From: Acanthochlamys bracteata | Lineage: Eukaryota > Streptophyta > Magnoliopsida > Pandanales > Velloziaceae | Direction: 5' to 3' | NCBI GenBank assembly: GCA_019914995.1 | Contig: CM034130.1 | Span: 9,114,001 to 9,178,000 of the forward strand | Length of the DNA stretch: 64,000 nt | Shown: piece by piece, positions 46,188 to 55,800 of the stretch | Position numbering within the stretch: position 1 is the first letter of the stretch | Layout of the letters: each line of letters opens with the position of its first letter | Made by a program: the position numbers and the translations under genes | Notes under the pieces: model-generated | What the model was told of the DNA's origin: nothing | Databases searched by the model: none | The model's input: only the letters and a program-made list of their open reading frames with translations

Positions 46188-48695
46188 TCACCAATAATCA
46201 CCACAAGAACAAACTCCGTTTTCAAAATGATGAAAGCGATTCAGATCTCTAACAATAATTTCTCGGCAAACAACCTTAGATATTAACTTGAAAGCAGCAT
46301 GGCAGTCAGAACAGAAGCGAAGATTTTTTATGATGCGAATTGGAGTACCAGATGGCATCTTTATAAGAGCATATGCTAAGGCTAGCCTCTCGCTGTGCAC
46401 CCATAGCAATGCTTGTTTCCGATCATCCCCAAGATCATGCAAGACAACATCACCATCAGGAATGTATCCAATTTTCTTAATTTTATTGTACAATAATTGT
46501 AGCATTCCATTTATCACTCTTAAAATTGGATGTGTTGTATCTCCCACGGAGAATGAATGGACTTCCCCGTGAACTTCAAGCCAGCTAAGGCCAGGTTCCT
46601 TTTTCATGCATTTAAGTCTCATGGTCTTTCTGACAAGAGCTACATCATCCCATGCACCTGCTGATGCATATAAATTTGACAACAGGACATATGCAGATTC
46701 ATCTCGTGGTTCCAATTCAAGCACCTTCTCTGCAGAAATTCTTCCTAGTTCAACATTTTTATGAATTAAACAAGCACCTAACATTGCACGCCAAACCATG
46801 ACACTTGGTTTCAGTGGCATCTCTTCAATAAATTTCATGGCCTTATCGAATTGGCCACCTCGTCCTAAAAGTCTGACAATGCAAGTATAATGCTCCATGC
46901 AAGGCTCAATTCCATAATCTCGTTGCATAGCATGAAAGTAAGTTAAACCCTGGTCGGTAAGTCCCATGTTGCTACATGCCGATAGGACTCCAACTAGAGT
47001 CACACCATTTGGCATGACCTTTGCTTCATTCATCTTAGCGAAAACTTGCAAGGCTTCCGTAGCTAAGCCATGCATAGCATATCCAGATATCATCGCATTC
47101 CAAGATATCTCATCACAACCACAAATTGTCTCAAAGATCTTACGGGCATCCTTAATGCTCCCACATTTGGCATATGTATCTATTAGAGAGTTACCCACAA
47201 CAGTATCATTGTTAAATGGAGTTTTAGCAATTAATGAATGCACCTGATGCGCCAGATCAATGGCTGCTATACTTGCACAAGCTCTAAGTGCACTGGAGTA
47301 TGTGACTTGACTTCTGGGTACTTGAGCAGCATGCATTTGATGAAATAGCCTAAGAGCTTCTTCTCCAAGTCCAAGTAGTACATGACCAACAATAACCGTG
47401 TTCCAACTGACATCATTTTTCTCTTCCAAACTGAGGAATAGCTCCATAGATGACTCTATGGAACCCGATTTAGCGTATACATCAATAAGAGCATTTGCGA
47501 CGAATATTTCGGAGTCAAAGCCTATCTTCAAAACATGGCCGTGGAGTTGTGCACCTAAATCCAATCTCCCCATACTTGCACAGGCTTGCAGCACACTTGA
47601 AAAACTGAACTCATTTGGGACTACAAATTCCCGAATCATTCGTCGGAAGATGCCTAATGCCTCTTCACCTTGATCACTTTGTGCATAACGGGCAATCATA
47701 AAGCTCCAAAGAATAACATCATGATGTAAAACCATATCAAAAGCTGCACGGGCATCCCCAATATCCCCACACTTCGCATACATATCAAGCAAAGCTCCAC
47801 CAACATAAGGGTCTGTCTCATAATGCATCTTCACTGCACATCCATGAACATTCTTCCCTAAATCTAACGACAACAATGAAACAGAAGCCTTAAGCAAGCT
47901 AGTGAGCGTGAAATTGTTCGGTGTCAATCCCTCGCTCCTCATCAAGGAACAGAGCCATACAGCCCATTCTGGACAATCATTCTCCGCATAAGACGACACC
48001 ATCCCAGTCCAAACAACAATGTCTTTCTCCCGTATCCCATCAAACACTTCTCTTGCATGCTCAACAGACCCACAAAGGGAATAGGCATCAATAAGAGCAG
48101 CACCGACAAAACCATTCCAATCATGACCCAGCTTGACAACAACTGCATGCACGTTCTCGCAACTATCCGGCATATCCATGTTAACAAACATCTTAAGCAC
48201 AGTCGTAAAAACAAACTGGTTCAGCTCATGCCCTTCTCTATGCAGCGTAAGAAAAAGCTTCAGCGCTTCAGAAAACACACCAGATGCAACATACCCTTGC
48301 ATTAGCGTAACAAAAGAAACCATATTTCTCACGCGCATTTCGTCGAACAGGTTGAGAGCACTGCTAAGACTCCCGAGTTTGACATAAGCATTGAGTAAAA
48401 CGTTGAGGCAGAACAGGTCCAGGCAGTTGCCACGCTTAAGAGAATCGCAATGTAGAGCTTCTGCTTTCGCAGGAAACTGTTCTCTGATGCAGGTTTGGAA
48501 AGCGCGAGCGTAAACGTGCGAGTCGAACTCCATCTTGTTTGTAGAGAGAAAGTAGGGGCAGTCCTGGTCGCCGGTGAGCGGCTGAGATATGGCGGCAGGC
48601 TCGCAAACGGCGGCGACGGCGGTGACAGGAGAACTGCGGGTTGATTTGGGCCATTTGTGCTTGGGCCTGTTCTTGTTAGCCAAGAATCTGAACAT
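46188..48695 (-). CDS. DYW-class pentatricopeptide repeat protein (At5g13230-like)
   Basis: Intact intronless 835-residue PLS-type PPR protein, an organelle RNA-binding factor usually guiding C-to-U RNA editing. The N-terminus (MFRFLANKNRPKHKWPKSTR) is basic and Ser-rich as in mitochondrial or plastid presequences. Tandem P, L and S motifs run from about residue 60 to 640 (for example LNVLLNAYVKLGSLSSALNLFDEM), followed by E and E+ motifs (VMVWRAMLGAC, EPGLSWLEVHGEVHSFSVGD) and a complete DYW deaminase domain: HSE (about 767-769) and CSDC (about 795-798) zinc ligands, then FHHFENGVCSCGDYW at the C-terminus. The residue pattern resembles Arabidopsis At5g13230, predicted mitochondrial. The true ATG is at 48695. 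Its editing target cannot be read from the gene. Confidence 0.95.
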   Translation of the reverse strand: MFRFLANKNRPKHKWPKSTRSSPVTAVAAVCEPAAISQPLTGDQDCPYFLSTNKMEFDSHVYARAFQTCIREQFPAKAEALHCDSLKRGNCLDLFCLNVLLNAYVKLGSLSSALNLFDEMRVRNMVSFVTLMQGYVASGVFSEALKLFLTLHREGHELNQFVFTTVLKMFVNMDMPDSCENVHAVVVKLGHDWNGFVGAALIDAYSLCGSVEHAREVFDGIREKDIVVWTGMVSSYAENDCPEWAVWLCSLMRSEGLTPNNFTLTSLLKASVSLLSLDLGKNVHGCAVKMHYETDPYVGGALLDMYAKCGDIGDARAAFDMVLHHDVILWSFMIARYAQSDQGEEALGIFRRMIREFVVPNEFSFSSVLQACASMGRLDLGAQLHGHVLKIGFDSEIFVANALIDVYAKSGSIESSMELFLSLEEKNDVSWNTVIVGHVLLGLGEEALRLFHQMHAAQVPRSQVTYSSALRACASIAAIDLAHQVHSLIAKTPFNNDTVVGNSLIDTYAKCGSIKDARKIFETICGCDEISWNAMISGYAMHGLATEALQVFAKMNEAKVMPNGVTLVGVLSACSNMGLTDQGLTYFHAMQRDYGIEPCMEHYTCIVRLLGRGGQFDKAMKFIEEMPLKPSVMVWRAMLGACLIHKNVELGRISAEKVLELEPRDESAYVLLSNLYASAGAWDDVALVRKTMRLKCMKKEPGLSWLEVHGEVHSFSVGDTTHPILRVINGMLQLLYNKIKKIGYIPDGDVVLHDLGDDRKQALLWVHSERLALAYALIKMPSGTPIRIIKNLRFCSDCHAAFKLISKVVCREIIVRDLNRFHHFENGVCSCGDYW

Positions 48696-48988
48696 CAACT
48701 AATGAGCATCATTTGAAAGTCTTGTCGCATGAAAGCTTATAAACTTACTTATTATTTTATAAGTAGAAAATTTTTAATTTAAATAATAATTATTATTTTT
48801 CTGAAGAAATATTGCTGCACTATTTCAAATAATCTATAAGCTGTATTTCCGCTAAATAAACTATGTGGATAGTCCTTTTCGTATATAGCTTTAAGCTTTT
48901 CCAGCAAACCAAAAGCTATTAGTAAAATTATCAAAAGTTTATGAGCAATTATAGTGAATATGAACACTCCACTAGTTGCAAAAAATCT

Positions 48989-50509
48989 TCAAATGTTTTT
49001 GCACTTCCATTTATCAAGTACACCATGACTATGATAGGTAAAATCTTCAGTCATCAGTGACTGAGCCATGAATTTGTAGGCCTGTTGCGTTAGATGAATT
49101 CCGTCCCAACTTATCCTTCTTGCCGGCTCCGGACAGGCCCGGGACCCCGGTGTACCGCACATTCTGTTAACGTCAAAATTGTAGTCTCCTCCGATCCCAC
49201 AACACGCCTTCAGTAAGGAATCCGTATCAAATCCTATTGCCGCAAAACAGAAATGAGTCCCTCACGAAAAGAACTGAAAACCTAGTCAAAATGATGGTAA
49301 CATATACCTAGTTTAGAGGCGTTGGTGAGAAGGCGGATGAAGGCTTTGTAGTAGTCCGCATACATGATAGTAACATTAGGATGCTCCTGTCTGAGTTGAT
49401 CAAGTGCTTCTTGGAGCATTTGGTTATGCAACATTGCAAAGGAATTGAGATCTTTCAGGCAATTGAGCTCGTCGTAGGCTGCCGGATCGAGACTGTGTGA
49501 GTGAGTCAGGTAACTTGGCATGCATCCGACAGGGAAATTTCCAGGGACAAGCAGTTTGGTCGCACCAATGGAAATTACTTGCTATATTCATTTGTTACAG
49601 AGAAACAGAAATTCAAAAATATTTGTGTTAAGTAAGATTTTTATTTGCAGAAACATGCAAAATTAACATGTTGCTTGTTTTGTATATGAACATGTACCTT
49701 AGCAGCATCTATAATCTTGTCTACAACTAGTGGTACAAAGCTCTCCACTTCCTTAATTGACCTTCCTTGGAAGAAATGGTAGTTGTAATCATTGCCTCCA
49801 ATTTCTCCCATCAAAAATAGAGCTTTTTCAAGATGTTTACCACACACTGCCAAATTTATAAAAAAAAATTGGGTACTAAAGATTGGCCAACAAATAACTA
49901 CGACTTATTTACTCGTAACAAAATAGTTCTTCTTGGAACCGTTACCTGTTTGAGCGGAGCATGTAGAATTGAGATGGGTGTGGAACCAATGGAGTTGTTT
50001 GCTAAGGGAAATGGTGGTGACCGGCAACATGACACCTCTTTCCAAGAAGAATGAAGCATCCATTGCCGTGGCTCCGGCAACCGCAAAATTAACTCCATGT
50101 TTAAAATCAGCGTTCTCATCAAGGGATGGATTAATAAATGGTAGATCAAATGCCATAGCTAAATACACAAGAATAACAAAACAAATTAGTTACAAAAAAA
50201 TCAAAATGTTAATCCACATTATAAATATTAAATATGAAAAAACAAAAGAACCTAAATAGTCAATAATGAGAAGGCCATCAGAGCAACGGCCGGTAGGTTT
50301 CCTGAAAAATGTTTCTCCATACGGAAGAAAATTCATAACAGCACTAGCGCCGGATCTGCCTTTCCGGTGAAGTTGCCAGTATCCGCAATGGAATCACCGA
50401 AGCTATAGATGGATCTAATGAAGCATTTGTTGGTATTGGATGTACTAGAAATTGCATCAATGTTGAAGAAGAGGAGTAGGAAGGGCAGCAACAAGGCAGT
50501 GGAACTCAT
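48989..50509 (-). CDS. GDSL esterase/lipase, five exons, frameshifted exon 1
   Basis: Exons 50509-50252, 50158-49946, 49846-49698, 49581-49308, 49233-48989, all with GT-AG ends. This is an SGNH-hydrolase of the plant sinapine-esterase/acetylajmalan-esterase-like group, normally secreted and acting on small acyl esters. Blocks seen: [12 protein letters not shown] (catalytic Ser), [12 protein letters not shown] (Gly block), [11 protein letters not shown] (Asn block), and WDGIHLT (catalytic Asp/His). Exon 1 encodes a signal peptide but lacks one base after ADTGN (about 50371-50374): downstream [12 protein letters not shown] and DGLLIIDYL are in another frame, and exon 1 is 258 bases where 259 are needed. 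Exons 2-5 are clean. An intact alternative exon 1 lies upstream at 51889-52150, in the correct phase. Confidence 0.8.
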
Positions 50510-50704
50510 GGCTTGACGGCATCAAACAATGACGGTAGTGGGAGTTAAAAAAAAAGAAAAGAGAGGATTTTTGTTTTCACAAAATGCCAATAGATAAAGT
50601 GTTCATGTTTTGACTGAGATTCTAAAAAGAAGACTAGGGAATAAATATAGAATTTCTCTGCGTAGGACACCGAGCACCGAAAAAATGAATAGCTTTTCCC
50701 TTTT

Positions 50705-50944
50705 GGGCGTGTTTATCAACACCCCAAAGTGAATTTTTTTGAAACTCACTTCCAACATAAAATATATACAAAAATTTAAATAAAATTATTTTATTAATAA
50801 AATTTTTTTTAATACTTATTATAAATATTTTATTAATAAATAATTTTATTTTTTATTAAATATTTTTAATATTTTATTTGATTTTTTAATTTGGATGAAG
50901 TGAGTTTCAAAATAACTCGCTTCATCCGCAAGGTAAACACGCCC
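50705..50944. repeat. MITE-like element with GGGCGTGTTTA termini (family B-like)
   Basis: Ends GGGCGTGTTTATCAACAC and GTAAACACGCCC are inverted repeats; just inside them, TTTTGAAACTCAC and GTGAGTTTCAAAA also pair, so the element could fold back. The core is A/T-rich. It lies between the two GDSL first exons. Confidence 0.65.
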
Positions 50945-51295
50945 TTTGATGGAAAAATGAAGACTTTAGTTAACTCTTGTGCTTACTTATATATCATACA
51001 TAATTTTTAAAATAATTTTTATATTAAAAAATTATATTAGTAATTTATATTTATAATTTTTCTCATAAATTTAATTCTTGATAAATTATTTTAAAAAATA
51101 TTTTCTTAATTATATTCTAATTAATTTTTGATAAAGTAAACAAGCTCAATTTGTTTCAAGCGGAGTTAATTGGGTTGATTTTTTTTTACTCTCAAAAGAA
51201 TTTATGTGAACTCTAATTTGATAAATAAAAGAGATCATTAAAGTTAACTGTCACAAAAATTGGGTTAAGGAAGACAAAAAGAGCTTTATACTAAG

Positions 51296-51590
51296 AGCGT
51301 GTTTCAAGTGAGTGGAACTCCACTTTCTTCCGTCAGAATTGGAATTCCACTCACTTTTTTTGTTTCAATTGCAAATAGAACTGGAAATTCGAGTTCCAGT
51401 TCTATACAAGTGGAACTCAAGTTTTACTATATTTCTTTTTTTCAATTCACTTCCAATCCACTTCAACAATCAATTAAAACATAAAAATTAAACTTCACTT
51501 CCAACTTATTTTTCAAGAAACTCGACTTTCTATTTTTCACTTTCACGTAACTCAATTACGGACATTTGAAACAAGCCCTAAATGTTTGTT
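51296..51590. repeat. MITE-like element with GTGTTTCAAG/GAAACAAGCCC termini
   Basis: Left end GAGCGTGTTTCAAGTGAG, right end CATTTGAAACAAGCCCT, imperfect inverted repeats. The core differs from family A (TGGAACTCCACTT, CTTCACTTCCAACTTA). A partial relative appears at about 29340-29550. It sits between the two GDSL first exons. Confidence 0.55.
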
Positions 51591-51888
51591 TATTTTTATT
51601 TATTTATTTATAATATTTTTTAAAATAGAATAAGAATATATCAGTAGACACAAATTTCGAACTCACGATTCAAATATAACACAAATTTCAATCTCTTTTT
51701 CAAATTCTATTAACCCAATTTTCTGAAACGCAGTATCTGAGACGAAGAGTTGATCTTTCTTTGAAACTCAACTAACGTGGAGTAATTCAAACATACGAAA
51801 TTGGTTTGCTTCTGTGGTAGAAGTTGTGGATCAGAAAACAACTCACTACAGTTAAGGAAAACAACGAAACATATATAAGTAGACATAC

Positions 51889-52150
51889 CTAAGTAGTCTA
51901 TGATGAGAAGCCCATCAGAGGATCGGCCGTTAGGCTTCTCGGAGTACGTCTCTCCATAAGGAAAGTAATCTATAGGCGCAAAAAGTCCGGCAGGGCCTTC
52001 CCGGAGAAGGTTTCCGGTATCCGCAATAGAGTCACCGAAGCTATAAATGGCTTGAATAAAACATTCATTAGACTCAATAGCGCCACCGGAGATTGCATTG
52101 TTGAAGAGCAGAAGCAGCAAAGAGATGAAATAAACATGAGAATACTTCAT
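51889..52150 (-). CDS. Orphan GDSL esterase first exon (intact, alternative exon 1)
   Basis: ATG at 52150 opens an 87-codon exon with a signal peptide (hydrophobic FISLLLLLFNNAIS), then [27 protein letters not shown] and DGLLIIDYL, ending at a strong donor (TTAG|GTATGT). It aligns with exon 1 of the downstream GDSL gene and ends in the same phase (one base carried over). No GDSL exons 2-5 of its own exist between here and 50509. Spliced to the exon 2 at 50158 it would give an uninterrupted 380-residue enzyme, with the catalytic Ser at position 41. It could therefore be the working first exon of that gene, or a stranded remnant of a tandem copy. Confidence 0.7.
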
Positions 52151-52719
52151 GGTTGATGCTTTAGCAAGTTTAGAGAAGGTGTGAGTATGTGTTTGTTCTT
52201 CAATATATTAAGTAGGAGTTGCACTCCAAGATTCTGGTGGGAAAAAAGAGAGCAAAAAATAAAGCTTTAGATTTTCTTGCAAGAAAAAACAATGCGTCAA
52301 TGATTGAGTTATGTTTCTATTTTCAACTTAGGTTTGAATACTGGATTAAATCATAAAATAAAGAAATTTTTTGACTTACATCGCCTTATTTAGATCCATT
52401 CATTTCATCATAAGTGAAAACTTTCTTCTGAAATGAGCAAATTTAATCAATTACTGCACAGTAAACTTGTACATAGAGGAAAAACATGCTTATGTAGGTC
52501 AGCGGTTGGAATCACAGGTAAAAATGTACACATTCTTGCAAAGCAAAATGAAAACTTGTCAAGAACAAACACTAGATCCTCTTTCCCTCACTTGAAACAA
52601 TTTATAGCAGCAGCATAGTAAAGACATTACATTTCAAGAGTACAATATAAAAGGTCAGGTTCAATATTTTAATCTGGTTGAAGCATTATAACAATTTATA
52701 ATTACAAATGGTAATTTAC

Positions 52720-52864
52720 CTGTTGAGGGTATCTATCCCTAGGAAGGAAGTATTGAAAGGTAGCACGGTGCCTAAAGCATCCAAGGATGTTGCTCCATTT
52801 GGAAAATTAGCAGAGTTAAATCAAGGTATGGCTTGATAAGAGAGAGAGAGACTGAAAGCCATAG
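52720..52864 (-). pseudogene. Decayed GDSL esterase exon-2 remnant
   Basis: On the minus strand an acceptor-like ATGCAG is followed by CTATGGCTTTC, matching the start of the intact exon 2 (CTATGGCATTTGATC). After a stop-bearing, shortened stretch the frame ANFPNGATSLDA resembles [12 protein letters not shown], and it ends at CAACAG|GTAAAT, the same ending as exon 2. It is 145 bases long against 213 in the intact copy. It marks a third, lost GDSL copy in the cluster. Confidence 0.5.
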
Positions 52865-55800
52865 CTGCATGACAAAGATGATGAAACAAACAAGATAAAG
52901 CATCATATTTATGATCTTAGACCAAATTCAAACATCACTTATGCAAGCGAAAAATCCTTAGTTAAACAATTTATTGCTCAGACATATTACTAGCCTTGCG
53001 GGCAAGACTTCAATAATTATAGATTATTAGTGAGAGCACTTGATATTCATCTAACATAGATCGAATGCAGTTTTGACTAAGGGCCTGCTCGGTTGCTGAA
53101 AGTGGCAATTGGCGAACTTAGAATTTTTTTAAAATCAATTAGCTATAAAATTTTTAAACTCAAATTTTTATAAATATCATCAAAAACTTATTTTCAATTT
53201 CAGACCACTAATATTCTATTTCACAAATCCAGACTTCAACAAATGATCATTATGTTTTCTGGCATTCTGTCATAGTTGCCCACATGTTGAGTTGCCAAAA
53301 ACATTTTATATTGCAAGAGATTTGATAGAAAGAGAAACAGAAGGGCCTACAAAGAATGGTAATCCACAAATCCAATCTTCAGCTAAGCAATTGGACAAAA
53401 CTCCAAACCACTAACTCTACTGCTAACACTATTCCTCCCCTCTTCTTTCATTCAGTCTTCATTTCATGCAGCAACAGAACAGATAGATTAGTTCAAACTA
53501 ACCTATCTCTTCTTCTTCAATGGCTATGCTGTCTAGAGCTTCACTCAGGTCCTTAGAGCCAGCAGGCAGCAGCAGCAGCTGGAATAGTTACAACGTATTT
53601 TTTCTCCTATACAATTTACTCTTTTAATTGGTTCAGTCATTGGTTCAAGGCACCTGGTTCTGCAATTGTGCAGCAAATGTGTTGTCAAGGCTTTCTATAT
53701 AGAAACGTTCTCTTTAGACTTCTTGAAACCAAGTTTCTGAAAAGTATATAAAACTACTAGAATTCTGAAAGTTTTAGCTAAGTAATTAACTTGACGCATA
53801 AAGTGAACCTAGGCACGTCAATAAAATTTAATTGCCAGCATAAACTTATACATGAAATTTGATTTGTGACTCGAAACTAAGTATTTCTTGCGGTTTATTT
53901 CTGTTTGGTTGAATCTTAATTATGCCAGAAAATGTACTTGTTACGCATGTTTCGCAACTTCTATTGAGGAAAGTTGAGAAAGCAATTGAAGCTGAAGGTT
54001 TATTGTCAAGTCTGAACCTTCCTTTCATGTTTCACTTGAGCGTGAAAACTTTAGTTCTAGCATCTCAATGAATGGTTCATTTTTTAGACTGCGTAACAGA
54101 TTTCTGTAAGGCATTTTGATTCACTTGAAGGTTTCATTTATTGGTTTTGATTGCCTATTTTGATTGGGATGCATTGCTTTACTTCAATCGTTGCAAATTC
54201 TGCAGGGAAATGAATTTGCTTCTAGCAGAAAGCAGCAACATCAAAGAGCAACTTCGCATCTCTAAGATCCTCTAGGCTCAACATCTGCTGTGCAGTACAT
54301 CCCTTTCCATCTGCAACTTAATTTACGAAATTCTCGTAAAGCATCAAAATAGACAATGGACTTATTGTTGATGCTGATAATGTATATATTGTGCAGGCAA
54401 AAAACAAGACAGTGTCAAAGGTAATTGAGATTGTCAAGAGGCAACTTGATTTGGCGCTTTATTGAATCAAGAAACCAAAGTTTGATGATATTTCTTTTAA
54501 GATTTGGATTTCAACTTGTATAAGTTCAGGAGTTCTAGGAGATTCAAAAATATTCAGTGGAACTTGTTTCTACTAGTATTTTCTCTACCATTCTTCATTA
54601 TGAACCTTGCATAGTTTTATGTTTTGAGGAAAACCTTGCATAATTTGTGTATGATATATTAAAGTTGCTTTTGTTGTGTAAAAATGTTCAATTGGAAGAT
54701 TTTTCTTAGTTTGTTCCCACAAATTGAGAATTCCTGGCAGTGGATTTTAGTCTGAAGTAAATTGAAGAAAAATTATCATATAATAGACGGAAAAGTGCAA
54801 ATGAATTGAATCCTTTATGTTTTTTATTAACCACATGTGATCTTGCCAAGAATTTATCTATGTGCTGTTCTATATTTCATTTTTCTATCAGGACAAGCTT
54901 TGCATGAGGACAAAAATCGATGTTAGAGGTCAGATTTTGTGAATTTGTATTTTCAAAATGTAGGACTATGCATTTGACATTGTTAGTCAGTTGCAGCTTG
55001 ATGTTTAGGTCCATTTTCTAATGAAATGATTTAGGAGTTTTTGGTGAAATACTGTAAACATTGAATTAGTTAAAAAAATGCGGTCCATTTTCCTAGCGAG
55101 TTGTCAAATTTTAGATGTTAGAAGTTCTCAACTTTCGGCTGTGCATCACACTGAGTAGGTATACTTGAACATTGTTTCTAAATACTGAATTTCTCTAATG
55201 TTGCAAATTAGGAATCCTACCAATTTTCTACTGAAAAGTCACAGATGAACAATTGAGAATTAGAATTGCTGATTACATTCCTTTGAAAATTTTCTTGTAA
55301 TAGTAGTTTGAAAATGTTTTAAGCAATACTTTCAGAGGAAGATTTTAGTGTGCGACTTTCCACAAAATTTTGCTTGATTCCATAATTTTTCTTGTTTTTG
55401 TGTTCCTCACAATTCCTACACAGATTTTTGCACGAGGCTTAAAATACCATGGACACTATGTTGAGCAATCAGGAATCAGGAAAACAAAGACCGTTTGAGG
55501 TACCTGCAGATAACTGGAGAAAAGTTTCCAAACATCTCATCAACCTGCGGGAGTTGGACTTGAATAATTCGCCGATTCAATCACCACTGGCTTTATTATC
55601 TACAAATTTGCTTGTTTTGGAATCAGGTATGTTGTCAGTCTGATCACTTCAAGTTAAGATCACCAGACTCCTTTCCGGAATCAGTCGTTGAAGACCCTGA
55701 CAACATACCTGATTCCAAAACAAGCACCCAGGAGAAACTCTTGCGGATAATTCTGAAACCGTGAACCGAAAGATCTCATGGTCTCCGGAGTTAGCAAGAC

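Follow-up and report, generated by a model that had tools for sequence, protein, structure and literature searches.

The window analyzed here is a 64,000-nucleotide stretch of Acanthochlamys bracteata DNA (CM034130.1, termed contig C5, positions 9114001–9178000), and the subject is a GDSL esterase locus on its minus strand. The locus displays an intact first exon 1.4 kb upstream of a second, homologous first exon that has lost its reading frame and that adjoins exons 2–5. The locus is real, and the presence of the intact upstream exon beside the broken exon 1 is confirmed. The favored reading, to which about an even chance is given, is that of one esterase gene whose two first exons diverged in ancient times, where the farther one now most likely supplies the signal peptide and the catalytic serine. 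Three copies are distinguished on the minus strand: A, a relic; B, the intact upstream first exon; and C, the frameshifted exon 1 together with exons 2–5. Genome-wide searches covered 195.5 Mb.

Structure of the esterase locus

52210–52202, minus strand: TATA-like string (TAATATATT), some 50–60 bases upstream of the copy B start codon
52150–51889, minus strand: first exon of copy B, intact, 262 nucleotides, 87 codons plus one base, open from the ATG
50509–50252, minus strand: exon 1 of copy C, frameshifted, adjoining exons 2–5, 258 nucleotides
50158–49946, minus strand: exon 2, block II, NFAVAGA
49846–49698, minus strand: exon 3, block III, GGND
49581–49308, minus strand: exon 4, open, GT–AG ends
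49233–48989, minus strand: exon 5, block V (SWDGIH) and stop codon

The copy B exon contains a start codon, a hydrophobic N-terminus, the GDS serine block and the PYGE block. Elsewhere in the genome it is matched best by exon 1 of a gene on contig C3 (67% over query positions 10–87). This gene, termed the C3 gene, is single and intact, has five exons and lies on another chromosome in a region collinear with the window. The homology between the first exons of B and C is well beyond what chance would give (E about 1e-23 at the DNA level), and both end in the same phase; the phase match follows from the homology and therefore is not independent evidence. Exons 2–5 are all open, with GT–AG ends and consistent phases, and display 0 lesions in 881 nucleotides.

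The donor of the copy B exon is TAG/GTATGT and that of copy C exon 1 is TAG/GTTCTT, which is weak. By U1 pairing these rank 7th and 25th, respectively, of 26 family GT donors. The sample for this ranking was 28 of the 30 exon-1 loci (L013 and L025 excluded), and two of the 28 were dropped as they have no GT at the expected place. The donor of the C3 gene is only middling, therefore a gene can live with a weak donor.

A leftover exon 2–5 set belonging to B was sought between B and C and was rejected as a candidate: tblastn with the five exon peptides gave no relic (best E 0.74), nor did blastn of the C3 gene against the B–C interval (best E 0.024). The first-pass annotation had described the upstream exon as an intact homologue with a strong donor, the same end phase and no exons 2–5 to follow it as its own, and on all of these points it is borne out. 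The TATA-like string was read by eye, and in AT-rich DNA it would be weak evidence of a promoter.

Proposed working of the gene

Both first exons could join exons 2–5 in the same phase, and the nearer one would have lost its frame recently. We infer that transcription starts upstream of B and that the junction 51889–50158 is used, i.e. the donor after 51889 would be spliced to the acceptor before 50158. The farther exon would bring its own start region. First exons carry no acceptor, and the acceptor of exon 2 is the first one in the gene model, so no skipping mechanism is needed. The broken exon 1 would then sit inside an intron, where a cryptic acceptor upstream of it is possible.

A further step is proposed tentatively and at somewhat below an even chance, namely that the handover of first exon and promoter has been completed. 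The gene's own promoter, signal peptide and serine exon would be dead, and an anciently diverged one-exon tandem paralogue would drive a hybrid enzyme of mixed 5′/3′ ancestry, perhaps with changed expression.

The predicted product

Joining of the copy B exon to exons 2–5 (262+213+149+274+245 nucleotides) gives a hypothetical splice product of 380 amino acids plus the stop codon. This sequence matches the Pfam domain Lipase_GDSL with an E-value of 6.6e-32 and a score of 111.8 bits (gathering threshold 23.6), and the match covers the whole domain, profile positions 1–207 of 208. All SGNH blocks are represented: GDS in the copy B exon, AVAGA in exon 2, GGND in exon 3 and WDGIH in exon 5. The 380-residue enzyme with a complete set of blocks that had been predicted at first pass is thus recovered, and the product would be a plant GDSL (SGNH) esterase.

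The exons and phases are the same as those of the C3 gene and agree with the five-exon GELP structure; in that family it is the junction of exons 2 and 3 that divides cluster 4 from clusters 5–10. Two sequences of solved structures matched the product significantly, only over residues 253–358. From its motifs the enzyme presumably belongs to the acetylajmalan esterase group, OG-GELP-C4g, the plant sequences compared being those of this genome.

The frameshift in copy C

Exon 1 of copy C reads MSSTALLL... in one frame and PYGETFF...IIDYL in another. The loop between TGN and PYGE (positions 50371–50325) is 47 nucleotides long compared with 48 for 16 codons, and is either one base short or has two bases too many. 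As the loop is not conserved, the affected base is not identifiable. The first-pass annotation was right that the exon is broken, the loop being one short, but its placement of the missing base at 50371–50374 was a guess at the start of the loop. Its open frame runs into a TGA at 50335–50333.

At 50336–50333 (ATGA) this premature TGA coincides in part with an ATG in the other frame. A protein starting at this ATG would be without the signal peptide or the catalytic serine.

The genome displays 39 exon-1 places (40 search rows, with the two copy C rows merged), and copy C exon 1 is the only one split into two rows of different frame; one further place carries internal stops. This control is partial, in that many rows align to the query over only a portion of its length and slips beyond the aligned portion are not covered. 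The frameshift is probably real.

Age and origin of the copies

53084–52445, minus strand: relic of copy A, consisting of the end of intron 1, exon 2 in damaged form, some of intron 2, intron 3 and roughly nine bases that resemble the exon 4 start

Synonymous divergence (dS) by the NG86 method is about 1.6 for B versus C (70 codons), 2.2 for B versus exon 1 of the C3 gene and 1.8 for exons 2–5 of C versus the C3 gene. The YN00 method, where it worked, gave 1.2 for B versus C and 1.6 for exons 2–5 of C versus the C3 gene. These values are rough, with several of the NG86 distances saturated and others near saturation, and they show only that the lineages are old. The lines of B, C and the C3 gene thus all appear to be old. 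The first-pass annotation had explained the upstream exon as a simple duplication of the gene's own exon 1. A recent duplication is ruled out by the B–C distance, and that explanation gives way to one where B is an ancient paralogue in a decayed tandem array.

Blastn of copy A with the C3 gene shows 80% identity at 53084–52786, from the end of intron 1 into exon 2 (E about 1e-65), and 77% at 52642–52445 in intron 3 (E about 1e-37). Bits of exon 2 and intron 2 match at 52723–52628 (67%, E 3e-6) and weakly at 52773–52741 (E 0.009). Exon 2 bears frameshifting indels, and no match to exons 1, 3 and 5 of copy A was found when the C3 gene was aligned to the window. Introns that are close to the C3 gene together with decayed exons point to copy A as the dead counterpart of the C3 gene, with B and C as older branches. 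The ancestor of the locus would have been an old tandem array with three or more copies, where A decayed, B was cut down to its first exon or was long used only as an alternative first exon, and C kept exons 2–5.

Constraint on the exons

Branch tests were made with a codon model on four sequences. Neutral evolution of exons 2–5 on the branch of C itself is rejected (twice the log-likelihood difference, 2dlnL, 7.4), and for the readable parts of copy C exon 1 the test is borderline (2dlnL 3.3).

Decay was simulated from today's sequences with an assumed transition bias of 2 and 2000 runs per setting. An indel rate of 0.18 per substitution was taken from copy A versus the C3 gene (14 gap openings, 78 mismatches), and a softer rate of 0.10 was also used. 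At the rate of 0.18 a dead B exon came through undamaged in 31% of runs when the neutral divergence was 0.02, in 17% at 0.03, 5% at 0.05 and 0.2% at 0.10; the softer rate gave 47%, 33%, 16% and 1.6%, respectively. Dead exons 2–5 would still be intact in 12% of runs at 0.01 and 1.9% at 0.02, or in 27% and 6.5% at the softer rate. Intactness is a better witness of constraint than the codon model. The B exon is open in spite of NG86 distances from its relatives that are at least 1.6 or saturated, and therefore has been constrained for most of its history. Exons 2–5 have been constrained until lately or still are so.

Elements between the first exons

51581–51292, minus strand: miniature inverted-repeat transposable element (MITE) 1, TTA at both ends, short inverted ends
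50945–50702, minus strand: MITE 2, inverted ends GGGCGTGTTTA

The interval between B and C is lengthened by these two MITEs, which are members of high-copy families. For MITE 1, 40 places (its own included) of 1184 candidates were scored, and 11 of 290 columns (3.8%) are private to it in comparison with three other copies. For MITE 2, 40 places of 795 candidates were scored, its own included and several partial, and 6 of 241 columns are private in a comparison with three copies.

Alternative explanations

Several observations weigh against use of the copy B exon in a working gene. On the B branch alone omega is 0.27, which is not distinguishable from 1 (2dlnL 0.57). The private changes of MITE 1 amount to a divergence at which chance alone would keep B intact in about one run in ten, and therefore B could have been idle since that time. 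The array is visibly decaying, as seen in copy A, so B may be a mere leftover. In addition, the intact C3 homologue could make the gene dispensable. A serious if somewhat doubtful alternative is accordingly that of a recently dead gene beside an orphan exon, where C lost its frame lately, B lost exons 2–5 by deletion, no enzyme is made and the frames have not yet decayed. The adjoining wreck of copy A fits this explanation, the branch test for B leaves room for it, and the single lesion in C has the look of recent death. Contig C8 carries a further orphan exon 1, whose frame is lost past the SD codons. If all exons had been neutral since the frameshift, however, the lone lesion would fall in copy C exon 1 by length alone with a chance of 258/1401 nucleotides, or 18%. 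This weighs modestly, and rescue by the farther exon is therefore favored only about five to one on this count.

It is improbable that the base is missing through a sequence error or belongs to a polymorphic site of which the assembly shows one allele. In either case C would be complete with its five exons, and B would be a relic or serve as an alternative first exon. The one base in 258 nucleotides is the sole flaw of the exon, and the C row has an end-branch length of 0 in the exon-1 tree described below, its readable parts appearing well conserved. Against this, 0 of the 38 other exon-1 places appear in two frames (within the partial control given above), and the loop has no long homopolymer. 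A second copy or haplotig of the stretch was sought in the assembly for comparison and none was found. Very improbable, and already disfavored, is an origin of B as the displaced exon 1 of copy A. The exon 1 of A was not found and B lies about 0.3 kb from the A relic; yet the introns of A are 77%–80% identical to the C3 gene whereas B differs from its exon 1 by an NG86 dS of 2.2, and the flanks of B have no significant match to the C3 upstream region or intron 1.

Related loci and neighboring sequence

Six of the 39 exon-1 places have no downstream match: B, the upstream first exon of a pair on contig C8, C8:7288104 (L013), C18:113335, C18:3046405 and C18:1422117. The C18:113335 place is a GDSY-type gene that the census queries would miss, and C18:3046405 has stops. 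The census used 33 of 65 Pfam rows with exon 3 not searched, and absence of a downstream exon is a weak sign for distant family members.

L013 (C8:7288104–7288322, minus strand) is the orphan mentioned above. It is very like exon 1 of the gene on C2 and apparently is a recent fragment duplication.

The C8 pair (L038, C8:8242156–8245353, minus strand) is a second locus with two open first exons. Both are in phase 1 and have GT donors, and their GDS codons are 1.1 kb apart. No sense match of exons 2–5 of C or the C3 gene was found between the two, and the start of an exon 2 (E 0.002) follows the second. The pair may be of type OG-GELP-C4a, as judged from GDSNSDTGG motifs.

An exon-1 tree was made with 23 rows: B, C, the second C8 exon, and the 20 loci that remained after five of 25 had been dropped because the motif search missed GNS or GDP in them. 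Exon-1 places to which no locus had been assigned are not represented, and of the 20 inner branches 14 lack resolution. B, C and the C3, C1 and C2 genes form one group (support 97/98), and the two C8 exons with three other genes fall in another (support 96/98); no reference C4a sequence is in the tree. As B and C are in a separate group from the C8 pair, the layout with two first exons apparently had two separate origins. Neither C8 exon has the other as its closest row in the tree, and therefore these exons are also old.

An intact 836 amino acid open frame that by eye has the look of a pentatricopeptide-repeat protein is located just downstream of the esterase, at 46188–48698 of the window (minus strand). 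Blastn of 19 kb from the collinear C3 stretch gave no match to it.

Comparison with known systems

For OG-GELP-C4a, Cenci et al. (2022, PMC9602515) describe five-exon GDSL esterases in which several first exons, separate from each other, precede a common set of later exons, and they mark alternative versions in P. mume, T. cacao and A. thaliana. The same paper (table 4) places the Rauvolfia AAE in the acetylajmalan esterase group OG-GELP-C4g. A literature search on GDSL and alternative first exons gave this paper as the only match. The locus displays the alternative-first-exon GELP layout, with homologous first exons before one exon 2–5 set in the same phase. As in OG-GELP-C4a there are five exons, with separate first exons before one set of later exons. 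Unlike OG-GELP-C4a, one of the two first exons is frameshifted.

If the 51889–50158 junction is used, the locus would be a clean case of the path from tandem arrays to single genes with alternative first exons and on to a promoter swap. The alternative-first-exon layout of one GDSL orthogroup would then be present in a second clade. It would also be a caution that automatic annotation could score such a gene as dead or put its first exon in the wrong place.

Conjoined genes, or transcription-induced chimeras, combine exons of two same-strand genes in one transcript (PMC2953495). The esterase would resemble these in that exons of two same-strand genes would share one transcript, but would differ from the cases described there in that one first exon would take the place of another to which it is homologous. 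The locus is a further case of a known arrangement and involves no new mechanism.
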